Assembly (NCBI RefSeq): GCF_009707365.1
Contig: NZ_CP046122.1
Span: forward strand, 4,216,001-4,280,000
Length of the DNA: 64,000 nucleotides
Direction of reading: 5' to 3'
From: Microlunatus sp. Gsoil 973
Lineage (GTDB): Bacteria; Actinomycetota; Actinomycetes; Propionibacteriales; Propionibacteriaceae
The notes below the pieces were generated by a model, which saw nothing but the letters and a program-made list of their open reading frames with translations, had not been told where the DNA came from and ran no database searches. Positions 7,702 to 17,601 of the stretch are shown here, piece by piece; positions within the stretch are counted from its first letter, which is position 1, and each line of letters begins with the position of its first letter. Made by a program: the position numbers and the translations under genes.

Positions 7702-10693
7702 ATGCATCTACTCGTCAAAGGGACCCACGGCCGGCTGACCGGCGAAGCACTGGTACCGAATTCGAAGTATCACGCCCACCGTGCCCTGATCCTCGCGTCG
7801 CTGGCGCCCGGCGTCAGCCGGATCACCGGACTCTCCGACGCCCGGCACGTGCAATACACGGTCGGACTGCTCCGTGGGCTCGGCACCCGGATCGACGTCG
7901 AGGGCGACACCTTCATCGTTCACGGCGGACCGTACCGGCCGGTTCGGGACAGCGTCTCGGCGGGCAGTTCAGGGACGACCCTCTACTTCATGATCGGCCT
8001 GGCATCGCTGTCCGAGAAGCCCGTCGTGGTCACCGGGCAGAAATACTTCCAGCGCCGTCCGGTGGGACCGCTGCTCCGCTCATTGCAGCAGATGGGCGTC
8101 GAGCTCGAGTCGGCCAACGACTGCCCGCCGATCAGTGTCGCCGCGAAGCGGCCCACCGGCGGCCACGTGACCATCGCCGGAACCTTGTCGCAATGGATCT
8201 CCGGACTGATCCTGTTGGCTCCCTTCGCCACCGGCAAGACGGTGATCGAGGTCGAGGGCGAGCTCAACGAGCAGCCGTACCTGGAGCTGACGGTCGAGAT
8301 GATGAAGCAGTTCGGCCTCAAGGTCAGCTACGCCCCGGACTGGCGGCGTTTCGAGATCGAACCCAATCAGGAAGCCACTCCTTGCGACCTGGTGATGCCC
8401 CCGGACATCGGCTCGGCCGCCTTCGGCATCGCCGCGGCGGCGCTGCATCCCTCCGACATCCTGTTGCGCGGGATGAACCAGCTGTCCGGCGGTCCCGCCG
8501 ACCATCCCGAGGTGCACTTCCTGGACATCGCCAAGCAGATGGGTGTGCCGATGGAGCTGACCGACGAGGGCGTACGGATCGCCCACGACGGGATCCGACT
8601 CACGCCGGCCGACATCGACTGCCGGGGCATTCCCGACATGCTGCCGATCCTGTCGGTGATGGGCTCCCTTCGCAGACGGCGAGACGACGTTCAGCAACAT
8701 CGCCCACGTCCGGCTCAAGGAGTCCGACCGGGTCTCGGCGATGCTTCAGCTCAACCAGATGGGCGGCAACCTCGATCTTGACGGCGACGTACTGAGGGTT
8801 CGCGGCATTCAGCGGCTGCACGGCGCCAAGCTGTCGTCCTTCAATGATCACCGGGTGCTGATGTCGCTGGCCATTGCAGCTTCGACCGCAGACGGTGACT
8901 CAACGCTGACCTATCCGAACGCGTACCGGATCTCCTATCCGGCCTATCTGGAAGCGATGAACAGCTTCGGCATCCCGATGTCGGTCGAGGGTGGTCGCCC
9001 GAGCCGGGCCGCGCGGACCCATCGGCAGTTGCCCGGCGAGGCCGGCAATCCTGATCTTGCCGCCGAGTTCACACTGTCCGATTGGCTGAAGCGCTGGGCG
9101 ACCGAGCGCCCCGATGATGTCGCGGTGATCGATGCCCGGCCGCGGACAACAGCGAAGATCACTTGGGCCGAACTTGATCAACAGGTCGACCGGGTGGCCT
9201 CGCAGTTGATCAGGCTCGGCGTGCAGCCAGGCGAGCCGGTCGCGCTGCAGCTGCCGAACTGGACCGAGTTCGTGATCATCGCGCTGGCCACCATGCGGAT
9301 CGGCGCGGTCTGTTGTCCACTGATGCCGATCTTCCGGCAACGGGAGATCGCGTTCATGCTGCGACGGGCCAAGGCACGGGTGCTCTTCGTGCCGGACACC
9401 TTCCGCGGCCGTGCTCACGCCGAGGAGATCGCCGGAATCGTGAACGGCGATTTCGGCGCGATTCCCGATGATCTTGCTCACGTCGTGGTGCTGCCCGGTG
9501 ATGTGCAGATCGGTGCGGACTGGTCGCCGGGCGACGTCTCCTGGCACGACTGGAGCGATCTGCTGCAGGGTGAGGTCGACGAGCAGGCGCTCGCCGAGCG
9601 CAAGCCGACACCGGACCAGACCGCCCAGCTGCTCTTCACCTCCGGCACCACCGGGGAACCCAAGGGCTCGTTGATGACCGGTGGCACGCTGTCCCGGGCA
9701 GCGTCGATGGAGATCCGACACCTTGGCCTCGACGCCTCCGACACCGTCTACATCCCCAGCCCGCTGGCCCACCAGACCGGATTCCTCTACGGCATGTGGT
9801 TGGCCATGGTGCTCGGCGTCCCGCAGATCATCCAGTCCGTCTGGGAACCCCGCCGCGCACTGCAGGCGTTGCGCGAGGGTGAGGGCACCTTCGTTCAGGC
9901 CGCCACGCCGTTCCTGGCCGATCTGGTCAAGGCGGTCGAGGCCGGGGAGGAAGCTCCCGAGAAGCTGCGGATCTTCGTCGCCACCGGTGCCGCCGTGCCC
10001 CGCGGCCTGGCCGAACGGGCCACCCGGGTGCTGGGCACCGCGGTCTGCGGGGCCTTCGGTACGACGGAGACCTGCCTGGGTGCGCTGAGTGCCCCGACCG
10101 ACGAGCCGGTGAAGGTCTGGGGCACCGACGGGCGACCGCTGGAGGGCATCGAACTGCGGATCACCGACGAGAACGGCGTCGTCCAGGCCGCGGGGACCGA
10201 GGGCAACTTCGAGATCCTGTCGCCGACCAACTTCCAGGGCTATCTGGACCGTCCCGACCTGACTGCCCAGGCCTACACCACCGACGGCTGGTACAAGACC
10301 GGCGACCTGGGCATCATCGACGAGTCCGGCTACATCCGGATCACCGGCCGGGTCAAGGACGTGATCAACCGTGGCGGGGAGAAGATCCCGGTCGCCGAGA
10401 TCGAGAACCTGCTCTACGACCACCCCGAGATCGACGACGTCGCCGTGGTCGCAATGCCCGACGAGCGTCTCGGTGAGCGGGCGTGCGCGTTCGTCGTGGC
10501 GAAGCCGGGCGCGAAGATCGGCTTCGAGGAGATGATCAGCTATCTCGATGATCACCAGGTCGCCAAGTACTACTGGCCGGAGCGGCTGGAGCTGATCGAC
10601 GTTCTGCCGCGCAACGCTGCCGGTAAGATCCAGAAGTTCCTGCTCCGGGAGCAGGCCAGGGGTCTGAAGCCCCAGCGTGTGGAAGGGAAGTAG
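7702..10693 (+). CDS. EPSP-synthase-like domain fused to acyl-CoA ligase (one frameshift)
   Basis: Residues 1-about 430 are an EPSP synthase fold. The catalytic lysine and arginine region reads PNSKYHAHR (19-27), in place of the usual GSKSxxxR. GSSGTT, QRRPVGPLLRSL, the aspartate in IPDMLPIL and the glutamate in RLKESDR are kept. After a linker of about 25 residues with no stop or plausible start comes a full AMP-forming acyl-CoA ligase, with TSGTTGEPKG, YKTGDLGIIDESG and PRNAAGKIQK. The frame breaks at GGG 8661-8663; removing one G restores MAPFADGE and joins both halves. AGGAG before ATG 7702 supports the start. With the three following genes it matches the five functions that make cyclohexanecarboxyl-CoA from shikimate. 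The ligase would activate the ring acid and the EPSPS-like part would act in ring deoxygenation. A housekeeping AroA role is unlikely because of the altered motif and the fusion. Confidence 0.8.
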
Positions 10694-10696
10694 ACA

Positions 10697-11851
10697 GTGA
10701 CGGGTATCGCCACCGGTGACTACGACAAGCTGATCACCGAGGTCACCGAATGGGTCCGTGGCCCCGGCGAGGAGTGGGCCGACCGGATCGAGGAAACCGG
10801 AGAGGTACCGGATGAGTTGTGGACCGAGCTGCGGGACCGCGGCTATCTGTCGCTGGCCGCACCGGAACGGCTGGGCGGCAGGGGACTGTCCTTCGAGCAG
10901 TGGATGGGTCTGATGGAGAGCTTCTCCACCTCCCACGCCTCGGTGCGGATGATCGTCCACGTGGTCAACGGCACCTGGCGGGCGATGGATCCGTTCGCCA
11001 GCGAGGAACAGCGTGACCGGTTCGTCCGGCCGTCGGTGGCCGGCACCAAGAAGGTCGCCTTCGCACTGACCGAACCGGGCAACGGCACCGGCGCGGACAT
11101 CACCTGTTCCCTGGAACGGGAAGGCGACACCTACTACCTCTCCGGTGAGAAACACCTGATCACCTTCGGGGTGCGGTGCGACTACTGGCTGCTCACCGCC
11201 CGGCTCGCGGGATCGACCGGTCGGGAGGGAACGGTGGCTGTGATGGTGCCGCGCGACGTCGCGGGCGTGACGGTCAACGACACCTCTCAGACAATGGGCG
11301 TCACCGGCACCGACCATGCGCACATGATCTTCGACCGGGCTCCCGTCCCGGCGGCCAACCGGCTCGGTGCCGAGGGGGACGGCCTGGCTGTGGCGCTCGG
11401 CGGATTCCTCACCCCATCACGGATCTCGGTCGCCATGAGTTGCGTCGGCCTGGCTCGCCGAGCCCAGGAGTTGGCCTACGACTACGCCAGCCGACGGACA
11501 ACCTTCGGCAAGCCGCTGACCGCGCGGCAGGCGATCCAGTTCATGCTCGCCGAGAACGAGGCCGACATCGAGGCGGCCAAACAGTTGATCTTGTACGCCG
11601 CCCGGGAGTGGGAGACCGGAGCACCGCGGGCGTCGCAGTTGTCCTCGATGGCCAAGCTGACCGCGGTCGACATGCTCGGTCGGGTGACCGACAAGGCGCT
11701 GCAGATCCATGGCGGCCTCGGCTACTGGAAGACCGAGAAGATCGAGCGGGTCTATCGGGACGCCCGGGCGCAGCGCTTCGAAGAGGGCACGAATGAGATC
11801 CAGAAGATGGTCGTCTTCCGCGAACTCCAGAAACAGAAGGACGTCTTGTGA
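10697..11851 (+). CDS. Acyl-CoA dehydrogenase, probably of the cyclohexanecarboxyl-CoA pathway
   Basis: This FAD enzyme is 384 residues, the normal length. It shows the N-terminal helical domain, [14 protein letters not shown] and the GEKHLITFG flavin-domain stretch (about residues 115-155). The C-terminal helical domain has [41 protein letters not shown] and EGTNEIQK, where the glutamate is at the usual catalytic-base position. It starts at GTG 10697, three bases after the ligase stop, with a GGAAGGGAAG ribosome site. In the CHC-CoA pathway such a protein would redistribute double bonds in ring-CoA intermediates, but the exact step is inferred from context. Electrons would pass to ETF; an EtfD-like reductase is encoded at about 31 kb. 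Confidence 0.88.
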
Positions 11852-12666
11852 GCAAGCTGCATGAGGGCAAGATCGCGTTGATCACCGGTGCCTCCCGGGG
11901 CATCGGGCGGACGCTGGCGCTGACGCTGGCCAAAGAGGGCGCGACCGTCGTCGTCAATTTCAAGAAGAACGCCGACCTGGCCGAGAAGACGGTGGCCGAC
12001 GTGAACGAACTGGGCGGGCAGGGCATGGCCGTGCAGGCCGACATCGAGGCGGACGGCGGGGTCTCGGGGCTGTTCGACGCGGTCGCGGAGAACTACGGCC
12101 GGCTGGACTACTTCGTGTCGAACGCGGCGGCGAGTGCCTTCAAGAACATCGTCGATCTCAAGCCCCATCACCTTGATCGTTCCTATGCGATGAACCTGCG
12201 CCCGCTCGTCCTGGGCGCGCAGGAAGCCGTGAAGCTGATGGACAAGGGCGGTCGGATCCTGACGCTCACCTCCTACGGCAGCATCCGCGCCTATCCGACC
12301 TACGCCACGCTGGGTGCGATGAAGGCCGCCGCCGAGGCCTGGGTCCGGTACATGGCTCTGGAGTTCGCCCCGTACGGGATCAACGTCAACGCGGTCAACG
12401 GGGGCCTGATCGACTCCGACTCCCTCGACTACTTCTACAACGTGCCGGGGATGGCGCCGATGCAGACGGTCCTCGACCGGATCCCGAAGGGGCGGCCGGG
12501 AAGTCAGCAGGAGGTCGCCGACACGCTGGCCTTCCTGTTGTCCCCGGGCGCGGAATACATCACCGGCCAGACGATCGTCGTCGACGGCGGGTTGAGCATC
12601 GTCGCGCCGCCGTTCTTCGCCGACACCGAGGCTCCGCTCACCCTGCCCGAGCGTCCCACGAGGTAG
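11848..12666 (+). CDS. SDR-family enoyl reductase, ChcA/FabL-like
   Basis: This is a 272-residue short-chain dehydrogenase with the NAD(P) motif TGASRGIGR near residue 14 and the NAA motif (SNAAAS). The catalytic tyrosine and lysine are spaced Y-x6-K (YATLGAMK) rather than the Y-x3-K of ketoreductases. Y-x6-K is typical of FabI/FabL enoyl reductases, so reduction of a C=C bond next to a thioester is more likely than ketone reduction. ChcA, the 1-cyclohexenylcarbonyl-CoA reductase of ansatrienin producers, belongs to the same kind of enzyme. The gene starts at a GTG overlapping the dehydrogenase stop (GTGA), indicating translational coupling. A FabL-type fatty acid synthase role is the main alternative. 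Confidence 0.83.
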
Positions 12667-12668
12667 CC

Positions 12669-14710
12669 GTGCAGGTCTGGCAGCCCGGCCGGATCGGCTC
12701 GCTCGAGCTCGATCACCGGTTGATCATGGGCTCGATGCACCTCAATCTCGAGGCCCGGGATGATCATGGGGCGGCGTTGGCCGCCTTCTACGCCGAACGT
12801 GCCCGGGGCGGCGCCTCGCTGATCGTCACCGGCGGCATTGCGGTCAACCGGGTCGGCGCGGGCGGCCGGCGGTACGCGATCGTCGGCGTCGCTGATCATG
12901 AGCAGACGCTGGCCCGGGCCGCCGCCGCAGTCCGGTCCGAGGGCGGCCGGATCGCCGCCCAGCTCTTCCACGCCGGGCGGTACGCCTTCGAGGCCGCGTT
13001 CGGCCTCACCCCGGTCGCGCCGTCGGCGGTCTACAGCAGGTTCTCTCGGTGCATGCCGGAGGCGATGACCGAGGAGCAGATCCGTCAGACCTTGGCCGAC
13101 TTCGGCACGGCCGCCGCGACCGCCCGAGTACTCGGCTACGACGCGATCGAAGTGATGGCGTCGGAGGGCTACCTGGTCAACCAGTTCCTGTCACCGCTGA
13201 CAAATCAGCGCGATGATGACTGGGGCGGCGACGCCGCGCGTCGCCGGAACTTCCCGCTGGAGCTGCTCCGGGTGATCAAGGATGCCGCCGAGGGACTGCC
13301 GGTGATCTTCCGCATCTCCGGTGCCGACCTTGTACCGGGGTCCAGCAGCCGCGCCGAGATCGGTGACTTCGCCGTGGAGCTGGCCGCCGCTGGGGTCGAC
13401 GCGATCAACGTCGGCGTCGGTTGGCACGAGGCACAGATCCCGACAGTGCAGACGCTTGTTCCCCAGGGAGTCTGGGTTCCGGTCGCCGAGTCGATCAAGG
13501 ACGTGCTGCGAGCCGCCGGACATGACATTCCGGTGATCGCGTCCAACCGGGTGAACCACATCGAACAGGCCGAGGCGATCATCGGCGGCGGCGCAGTCGA
13601 CTTCGTGTCGATGGCCCGGCCGTTCCTCGCCGATCCGGCTCTGGTCAGCAAGGCACGCAGCCGTCGGCTGGATTTGATCAACACCTGTATCGCCTGTAAC
13701 GAGGCGTGTATCGACCGTTCGATCGGGGACGCCGAAGTGTCCTGCCTCGTCAATCCGCGCGCCGGGCGCGAGCTCGGCTTTCCGATCGGCGAACGCGCGG
13801 TGATCAGCGGTCGGTTCGCGGTGATCGGCGGCGGCCCGGCCGGTCTCGAGGCGGCCCGTGCCCTGGCATCGCTTGGCCACCGGGTCACCCTCTTCGAAGC
13901 CGAGGCCGAGCTCGGCGGCCAGTTCCGGATGGCCGGTCGGGTGCCGGGCAAGCGGGACTTCACCGAGACCATCCGCTACTTCTCCGCCGAACTCGATCGG
14001 CTCGGGGTCGAGATCAGGCTCGACTGTCCGATCACCGGGCAGCACCGCGAGGAGTTGCAGACCTACGACGGCATCATCGTCGCCACCGGGGTGGTGCCGC
14101 GCCGTGTGGAGCTGCCCGGAAGCGACCGATCCCTGGTGATCAGCTACCACCAGGCGTTCGACGAACCGGAACGCCTCGGCGACCGGGTTGCCATCGTCGG
14201 CGGTGGTGGGATCGCGGTCGATCTCGCCCACCTGTTGGTGGGAACGGGTTCGAACGACCCGGAGGCCAACAGGCGAGACTTCCTCGCCGAATGGGGCGTG
14301 GAGCAGGAACCGCAGGCCCCCGGCCGGGCCGGACCGTCACAGTGATGCGGCGCACCGGCAAGATCGGCTCGGGAATGGGGCTGACCACCCGCTGGGCAGT
14401 GATCGGTGCGATCCGGCATCATGGTGTCAGGATGCTGACAGGCGTCGACTACCAGGAGATCACCGAGGACGGCCTGGTGATCATCAATGCCGACGGTCAC
14501 TCGGAACTCATCGAGGCCGACACGGTGGTCATCGCCGCCGGTCAGGAACCCAACGACGCCGTGGTCAAGACCGTCGCCGACGCGGGCGTTCCCTACCGGG
14601 TCATCGGCGGCGCGGCGGACACCGCCGGACTGAACGCCGTCCGAGCGACCAGCCAAGGCATCGAAGCGGCGTTCGAGCTCAGCGCCCTGACCGTCGCCCG
14701 GAGCCGCTGA
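12669..14710 (+). CDS. NADPH-dependent 2,4-dienoyl-CoA reductase-like flavoprotein (one frameshift)
   Basis: The gene encodes an FMN-binding old-yellow-enzyme TIM barrel (about residues 1-350), a [4Fe-4S] site CIACNEAC followed 11 residues later by a fourth cysteine, and an FAD/NAD(P) domain beginning VIGGGPAGLEAARALASLGH. This is the architecture of FadH, trimethylamine dehydrogenase and related enzymes. The reading frame breaks in a CCCCC run at 14317-14321. One more C would give EPQAPRPGRTVTVM and join the C-terminal part ending at 14710, for about 680 residues in total. In the operon it would reduce cyclohexadienyl-CoA intermediates, as proposed for the homologous gene of the ansatrienin cluster. 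Start GTG 12669 lies two bases after the SDR stop. Confidence 0.83.
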
Positions 14711-16369: not shown

Positions 16370-17601
16370 TCAGAGCGTCGCCAGGCGGTCGCTCAGATAG
16401 CTGCGTTCGGCCTCGGTCGGCGCCAGCCGTAACGCGTCCTGATAGGCGAGCCGCGCCTCGGCCGGCCGGCCGTCACGCCGCAGCAGGTCTGCCCGGGTGG
16501 CGGGCAGCAGGTAGTAGCCCTGGAGTTGCCCGGATGCGTCCAGGCCGTCGACGATCGCCAGTCCGGCGGCAACGCTTTCGGCCATGGCGACCGCCACGGC
16601 GCGGTTGAGTTCGATCACCGGCGACGGCGTCAACCGGGCGAGTTCGCCGTACAGCCCGGCGATCCGCGGCCAATCCGTGCGCCCGGCATCCGGCGCAACG
16701 GCATGGCAGGCGGCGATCGCGGCCTGCACCTGGTACGGCCCATTGGGCCGCATGGTCAGTGCTGAGTCCAGGATCCGTATTCCCTCATCGATCATCGTCG
16801 GGTCCCAGCGGCTGCGGTCCTGATGTTCCAGGGTGATCAACCTGCCGTGCTCGACACGCGCCCGGCGCCTGGCCTCGGTGAGCAACATCAACGCCAGCAG
16901 ACCGTACGCCTCCGGCTCGGACGGCATCAGGCGGACCACGACTCTGGTCAGACCGATCGCCTCAGCCGCCAGCCCGCGGCGCTCGTTCTGTTGACCGTCG
17001 TCCTCGTTGTAACCCTCGTTGAAGATCAGATACAGCACGGCGAGCACAGCGGCCAGTCGCTCGGGCAACAATGCCGCCGGGGGTACCCGGTAGGGAATAC
17101 CGGCGTTCGCGATCTTGCGCTTGGCCCGCACCAGCCGTTGCGCCATCGTCGACTCCGAGGTGAGCAGCGCACGAGCGATCTCCCCGTCGTCAGTCCGCAC
17201 AGGGTGCGGAGGGTGAGGGCGACGCGGGCGTCGAACGCCAGGGCCGGGTGGCAACAGGTGAAGATCAATCGCAGACGTTCGTCGGGTATCTCCTCCGGCT
17301 CGTCGCCGGAGATCCGATCCGGCGTGAGAGCCGCCAACTGATTCAGCTTCGCCCGGCCGACTGCATCCCGGCGAAGACGGTCCGTGGCTGTGTTGCGCGC
17401 CGTCCGGGTGAGCCATGCCCCGGGCCGGTCGGGAATGCCGTCACGGGGCCAGGTCGCCAGCGCTCTGGCGAACGCTTCCTGGGCACACTCCTCGGCGAGG
17501 TCCCAGTCCCGCGTCACCGCGATCATGGTCGCGACGAGCTGCCCCCATTCCTCCCGGAAGGCAGCGTCGACAGCGGCACGGACACGATCGGCCGGTGTCA
17601 T
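16370..17601 (-). CDS. ECF sigma factor with long C-terminal extension, ECF42-like (one frameshift)
   Basis: Sigma-70 region 2 is seen in [18 protein letters not shown] and region 4 in the [11 protein letters not shown]...[21 protein letters not shown] stretch. A helical extension of about 230 residues follows, with [10 protein letters not shown] and [16 protein letters not shown], the TPR-like tail found in this class. The frame breaks at CCCC 17182-17185 (plus strand); one extra base gives GLTTGEIARAL and a product of about 410 residues. The start overlaps the stop of the DGPF/YCII gene (ATGA). In the ECF42 group, sigma factors with this tail are linked to and regulate DGPF genes, without an anti-sigma factor. 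That assignment is inferred from architecture and neighbourhood. Confidence 0.82.

Follow-up and report, generated by a model that had tools for sequence, protein, structure and literature searches.

The question raised by a compact run of genes in Microlunatus sp. Gsoil 973 is whether it makes a ring-shaped acyl primer and, if so, for which product. The run lies on the + strand at positions 7702-14710 of a 64,000-nucleotide stretch of DNA (the window), which lies on a single contig of 4.91 Mb, and encodes five enzyme activities in tandem: a domain resembling 5-enolpyruvylshikimate-3-phosphate (EPSP) synthase, an AMP-forming CoA ligase, an acyl-CoA dehydrogenase (ACAD) family enzyme, a short-chain dehydrogenase/reductase (SDR) and an old yellow enzyme (OYE)-type reductase. 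With a probability of roughly two in three, this is a cyclohexanecarboxyl-CoA (CHC-CoA)-type cassette that feeds a dedicated ketosynthase (KS) for the synthesis of omega-cyclohexyl acyl chains. The compact gene set very probably makes a six-carbon ring primer from shikimate, and a separate pair of genes at another locus probably builds this primer into fatty chains. Assignment to the CHC-CoA type is well supported at the level of sequence by gene content, gene order, a separate subfamily of EPSP-like domains and the neighbours of relatives. An initial annotation had read the run as a shikimate-to-CHC-CoA operon, and as to the kind of cassette this holds, with DAHP synthase neighbours as further support, but it had missed that two of the domains are fused, that two reading frames are broken and that a second locus exists.

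Layout, fusion and spread of the cassette

Pfam matches on the + strand follow the order EPSP_synthase, AMP-binding with its C-terminal domain, acyl-CoA dehydrogenase domains, adh_short_C2, and Oxidored_FMN with Pyr_redox_2. The ligase stops at 10693 and the ACAD starts at 10697 (3-base gap), the ACAD stops at 11851 and the SDR starts at 11848 (4-base overlap), and the SDR stops at 12666 and the OYE-type gene starts at 12669 (2-base gap), in agreement with the initial description of five activities on one strand separated by 2-3 bases or overlapping by four. The EPSP-like and ligase domains had been listed separately; their kinds were correctly named, but in three congeners they form one open reading frame (ORF; 995 aa in locus L014), and they are fused in 81 of 83 distinct cassette loci. 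These loci comprise 78 from a contig scan, in which 172 relatives were found and 80 listed (L025 and L101 are repeats of L012 and L024), and five from whole genomes. The two exceptions are L102, from a Gammaproteobacteria metagenome-assembled genome (MAG), where the domains lie in different frames, and L104, where a contig end cuts the locus.

In the window, the N-terminal part of the fused protein, which is the EPSP-like domain up to a frame break (7702..8664, +; PF00275, E 3.6e-58), is 88-92% identical to the intact fused ORFs of the three congeners, and the remainder (8669..10693, +) holds the C-terminal EPSP-like segment (PF00275 match 346-417) and the AMP-forming CoA ligase (PF00501, PF13193). 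The ACAD (10697..11851, +; PF00441, PF02770, PF02771) shows 86-90% identity in the three congeners and the SDR (11848..12666, +; PF13561) 82-94%. The latter is of the FabL-like enoyl reductase type, with FabL as its best NCBIfam model, below cut-off, and the enoyl-ACP reductase 3oic as its best PDB chain, and is a candidate ChcA (1-cyclohexenylcarbonyl-CoA reductase). The FMN-FeS-FAD enzyme of the OYE/2,4-dienoyl-CoA reductase type, for which the best PDB chain is the 2,4-dienoyl-CoA reductase 1ps9, is one intact ORF of 678-704 aa in the three congeners and is split in the window into an N-terminal part up to a frame break (12669..14318, +; PF00724, PF07992) and a C-terminal part in another frame (14324..14710, +; residual PF07992 match; 70-74% identity to congener C-termini).

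A CHC-CoA biosynthetic cassette was reportedly described from the ansatrienin cluster of Streptomyces collinus by Cropp, Wilson and Reynolds in 2000. The ansatrienin pathway begins with the dehydration of shikimate and closes with the reduction of 1-cyclohexenylcarbonyl-CoA by ChcA. All the enzyme kinds of such a cassette (EPSP-like, CoA ligase, ACAD, SDR and OYE/dienoyl reductase, on one strand) were found here, and same-order relatives occur in Streptomyces. The Microlunatus cassette differs in that no ansamycin polyketide synthase (PKS) is present and that a KS and a second ligase lie at another locus, and possibly also in the fusion of its EPSP-like and ligase domains, the comparison being one of enzyme kinds.

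The same enzyme families could instead degrade cyclohexanecarboxylate, as in ali/bad-type catabolism. The top NCBIfam model of the ligase is indeed cyclohexanecarboxylate-CoA ligase (TIGR03208) and the second-ranked model of the ACAD is cyclohexane-1-carbonyl-CoA dehydrogenase, but both fall far below cut-off (498.8 against 792.3 bits for the ligase), and the scores on the ali/bad models TIGR03207 (137.6 against 575.35) and NF043006 (199.3 against 650) are likewise too low. Neighbouring DAHP synthase and KS genes in relatives point to synthesis, and we know of no role for an EPSP-like domain in this catabolism, so that a degradative operon appears very improbable.

Among the matches listed (80 of 172) are Streptomyces, Lentzea, Actinoplanes, Arthrobacter, Sinomonas, Cellulomonas, Solirubrobacterales, Eremiobacterota, two Gammaproteobacteria MAGs and others, and none from Alicyclobacillus, Sulfobacillus or Curtobacterium. 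The same gene order recurs in loci of Actinomycetota and Eremiobacterota, where the EPSP-like domains share 61-92% identity with the congener query, suggesting an arrangement beyond chance. The cassette is present in 4 of 20 Microlunatus genomes and in 3 of 394 genomes drawn from the class at E 1e-75 (own genome included); no relative was found on plasmids with the EPSP query or on viral contigs with the SDR query. DAHP synthase, which opens the shikimate pathway, is encoded within the flanking sequence fetched (10 kb at most) in 15 of the 83 loci, nine from Eremiobacterota and six from Streptomyces or Lentzea. DAHP synthase, KS and cassette adjoin in Eremiobacterota MAGs, several of which are named palsa (L062, L067, L071, L072, L077, L079, L080, L093 and L100), and cyclohexyl lipids are therefore predicted for this group.

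Arthrobacter cassettes sit between ribosomal-protein genes and EF-Tu/EF-G genes (L053, L055, L066, L074, L076, L078, L088, L089, L096 and L099). A very long ORF (1704-2181 aa; L089:3990-9644, - strand) adjoins the cassette in nine Arthrobacter loci; the one representative scanned has no Pfam match, and the ORF may be a real gene or a shadow frame. The EPSP-ligase fusion stands without other adjoining cassette genes in L050 (Streptomyces sulphureus) and L086 (S. albus), which have a fuller cassette elsewhere (L155 and L028, respectively), and these stand-alone fusions may make an early intermediate for another product.

The frame breaks of the window, at about 8662-8669 in the fused gene and about 14316-14324 in the OYE-type gene, could be real and the pathway dead in this strain, as two breaks in a single operon might suggest. 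A codon-usage frame scan of the window, however, flagged 11 places: the cassette breaks account for two, one (12643/12666) clearly reflects the normal SDR-OYE junction, and eight are further candidates at which the coding frame appears to change with no stop close by (17190-17200 on the - strand, 27213, 27350, 31305, 39127, 49026, 51869 and 58192). Near 17190, one ORF with a match to sigma-70 region 2 and one with a match to DUF6596 overlap in different frames and look like parts of one sigma factor. Another EPSP-family gene of the same genome, probably murA (G000:C1:1028698-1029928), also lies in two pieces in different frames. Together these form the pattern expected from indel errors and suggest such errors in the assembly. 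Across five stretches (all but the OYE C-terminus) dN/dS was 0.05-0.27, and pairs that include the window were about as low as pairs of intact congeners, the ACAD being slightly higher (0.161 against at most 0.149). Given the frame switches elsewhere and the low dN/dS, sequence error is probably the cause of the breaks, being likelier than decay, and a dead pathway is unlikely. The share of SDR matches with internal stops was dropped as a measure of sequence quality, because the congeners show such matches too.

The EPSP-like domain and AroA

The full EPSP-like domain of two congeners scores 308 and 317.7 bits on the aroA equivalog model TIGR01356, above the cut-off of 287.25, and automatic annotation would therefore name it AroA; the N-terminal fragment left by the frame break in the window copy reaches 202.8 bits by itself. 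The structure modelled for this domain (pLDDT 91.7, from 20 sequences) aligns with EPSP synthases at TM 0.89. Together with the membership of the other genes in large families, the aroA scores would fit a chance gathering of housekeeping AroA, FadD, FadE and FabG genes. The window genome, however, has a separate AroA that scores better (364.6 bits) and is 28% identical to the EPSP-like domain, and a separate AroA is present in 12 of 13 cassette genomes examined, the exception being a Gammaproteobacteria MAG; identity between the two proteins of the same host is 27-31%. In a maximum-likelihood tree, 84 cassette rows lie apart from 11 AroA rows with support of 100/99, the separating branch having a length of about 3.5 changes per site, bearing out the expectation that the EPSP-like protein does not group with housekeeping AroA. 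Three of 14 candidate AroA loci (L118, L123 and L127) gave no tblastn match at 1e-10 and were excluded from the tree and the residue count. Order and fusion are, moreover, conserved in many genera, and a chance cluster of housekeeping genes, already contradicted by the separate AroA copies and the tree, is scarcely credible. On sequence grounds, the EPSP-like domain is a subfamily of its own.

The two groups also differ in their residues. At the positions of AroA S23, R100, S169 and S197 (L014 positions 23, 95, 162 and 190), all 83 cassette sequences have Y, Y, L and E, whereas the 11 AroA rows have S in 10, R in 11, S in 10 and S or T in 11. The residues K22, R27, Q171, E341, R344, H385 and R386 of AroA are kept in the cassette sequences (K22, R27, Q164, E340, R343, H383 and R384 in L014); E. 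coli R124 and K411, where the alignment is ambiguous, were not used. We take S23, S169 and S197 of E. coli AroA to be the serines that bind shikimate-3-phosphate, with S169 and S197 presumably binding its phosphate. The replacement of these last two by Leu and Glu suggests that the substrate is shikimate. The domain thus shares with AroA the EPSP synthase fold, the kept residues and the passing of TIGR01356, and is set apart from it by low identity within the same hosts, by Leu and Glu in the presumed phosphate pocket, and by the fused CoA ligase.

A ketosynthase and second ligase that accompany the cassette

A FabF-like KS (at least 56% identity to either of two queries) adjoins the cassette in 32 of the 83 loci. 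On a phylogenetic tree most fall into two families, one actinobacterial (17 placed, plus the partial L060) and one from Eremiobacterota, an unclassified MAG and Gammaproteobacteria (12 placed, plus the partial L081 and L103). The active-site Cys, His and His are present in 31 of 31 aligned sequences, including L063 and L068, which lie outside both families. Seven Streptomyces loci carry the KS and a second AMP ligase directly 3' of the cassette; in the Gammaproteobacteria MAG loci L102 and L104, a KS lies directly 5' of the cassette-type EPSP gene.

No KS match was found in the window or in 20-kb stretches of the three congeners. The window genome does possess a second locus, outside the window, with a KS and a second AMP ligase (G000:C1:2926251-2929249). 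Its KS (C1:2927984-2929249) is 71% identical to the cassette-linked KS of L024, and a KS of 71-72% identity occurs in exactly the four cassette-bearing genomes of the 20 Microlunatus, the other 16 having at most 46% or none. The FadD-like AMP ligase beside it is present only in the same four. Compared with the pair 3' of the cassette in the seven Streptomyces loci, the Microlunatus pair shows 64.6-66.2% identity for the KS and 61.5-65.1% for the ligase. The KS resembles FabF in its Cys-His-His residues and in meeting the subfamily model PRK07314 (472.2 bits, cut-off 387), but narrowly misses the FabF equivalog TIGR03150 (487.9 bits, cut-off 493.75), groups apart from five housekeeping FabF of the genus, and occurs in Microlunatus only with the cassette.

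The 51 loci without a linked KS include three from Microlunatus, treated separately, and L022 and L064, which were left out; the remaining 46 were followed to their genomes, and 30 of these have the KS elsewhere, although in four (G446, G486, G489 and G490) it is part of a further cassette copy or, probably, of a detached contig fragment. The ligase adjoins the unlinked KS in 27 of the 29 loci fetched (the 30 less G446; exceptions L154 and L155). In 12 Arthrobacter and Cellulomonas cassettes, the ACAD and OYE-type genes are kept and there is no SDR match; in all 12, an SDR 65-68% identical to that of Microlunatus is encoded at the second locus, where it is followed by the ligase and then the KS. 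This displacement suggests that the two loci are parts of one pathway. That the KS and second ligase travel with the cassette is a new observation here: no account of the pair, or of the cassette in Microlunatus, was found in the open literature, which covers few of the relevant papers.

CHC-CoA, or cyclohexenyl-CoA, might alternatively be made for a small secondary metabolite, which the KS and second ligase would then serve. Very long ORFs with KS domains, putatively PKS, lie in the flanks of L022, L049, L054 and L046 in place of the KS, KAS III type genes lie in those of L038, L068 and L073, and the patchy distribution within Microlunatus would also suit such a product. However, the KS is FabF-like, none was detected near the Microlunatus cassettes, and no PKS was found among the second-locus neighbours given to Pfam, a search not aimed specifically at non-ribosomal peptide synthetases or carrier proteins. 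Three genomes with a PKS-flanked cassette (G479, G480 and G481, only 40 candidates scored in each; G299 left out) show no FabF-like KS of this type. A secondary metabolite is, on this evidence, the less likely reading. The pathway probably primes fatty-acid-type chains, because the FabF-like KS and second ligase co-occur with the cassette. The initial annotation had argued for membrane fatty acids from the lack of flanking polyketide genes, an argument from absence; its fatty-acid part now has positive support.

Proposed pathway and its implications

We infer the following chemistry. The EPSP-like domain would remove water from shikimate itself, with no phosphate and no transfer of phosphoenolpyruvate, and the fused ligase would form the CoA ester. 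The OYE-type enzyme, the SDR and the ACAD-like enzyme would reduce and dehydrate the ring to CHC-CoA or a close relative, which the FabF-like KS of the distant locus would condense with malonyl units. The remaining fatty-acid-synthase steps (reductases, carrier protein) would be borrowed from the housekeeping system, giving omega-cyclohexyl acyl chains, and the second ligase may re-activate free cyclohexyl acids. A shikimate-derived ring primer is described for the fatty acids of Alicyclobacillus and Sulfobacillus (PMC4378227, PMC3035248), and omega-alicyclic acids are given as about 60% in Alicyclobacillus isolates (PMC10562698); a similar use of such a primer is proposed here.

Several findings weigh against this reading. 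In the sequence as it stands, two of the window genes have a disrupted reading frame, and the congener domains pass the aroA model. The KS group is separated from the housekeeping FabF with an SH-aLRT of only 87. In the EPSP tree the four Microlunatus with the cassette cluster together, and the co-occurrence of the two loci there may be a single event. No record of the ansatrienin or asukamycin clusters was identified in the sequences searched, the likeness being by kind of enzyme, and no fatty-acid data for cassette-bearing Microlunatus were found in the literature, the product being predicted. The remaining 16 of the 46 genomes also show no unlinked KS at E 1e-120: two Sinomonas, three Lentzea, eight Streptomyces, two Actinoplanes-type and one Acidimicrobiaceae MAG. 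The flanks hold another KS, a KAS III or a PKS in eight of them, and in large genomes, where 40 candidates were scored each, a KS miss is uncertain.

For the two Sinomonas, S. humi and S. susongensis, the published fatty-acid table lists no cyclohexyl acid and is dominated by anteiso acids (PMC10394333 Table 3), and their lack of the KS fits this absence. The same source gives 8.3% 'summed feature 8' for S. humi and none for S. susongensis (PMC10394333). That this feature hides a cyclohexyl C17 acid is speculation. The Arthrobacter fatty-acid profiles known to us are likewise anteiso-dominated. Given these profiles, cyclohexyl lipids, if produced at all, may be minor or conditional, and the Sinomonas table speaks against a bulk membrane lipid as the product.

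Known producers of omega-cyclohexyl lipids comprise a few acidophiles and a few actinobacteria, and we know of no ketosynthase dedicated to a ring primer. With relatives of the cassette in many bacteria, ring-ended lipids may be commoner than thought. More tentatively, and with somewhat less than even confidence, a widespread two-part system is envisaged, in which a CHC-CoA cassette with a fused shikimate-dehydrating EPSP-like/ligase enzyme has a dedicated FabF-type KS and second ligase as its hitherto unnoticed elongation partner. The parts would be contiguous in some Streptomyces and split in Microlunatus, Arthrobacter and Cellulomonas, with a different KS in Eremiobacterota and Gammaproteobacteria, and many soil bacteria would make omega-cyclohexyl chains that routine fatty-acid typing has missed. 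A CHC-CoA gene cassette is described as allowing a Streptomyces avermitilis bkd mutant to make doramectin without added CHC (PMC4581413), and the present cassette, if the reading is true, would be another CHC-CoA supply for doramectin-like compounds. The two-locus reading would likewise provide a gene test for makers of omega-cyclohexyl lipids and would extend such lipids to Eremiobacterota, known here only from metagenome bins. The EPSP-like family would exemplify an EPSP synthase fold that has exchanged enolpyruvyl transfer for the dehydration of shikimate.

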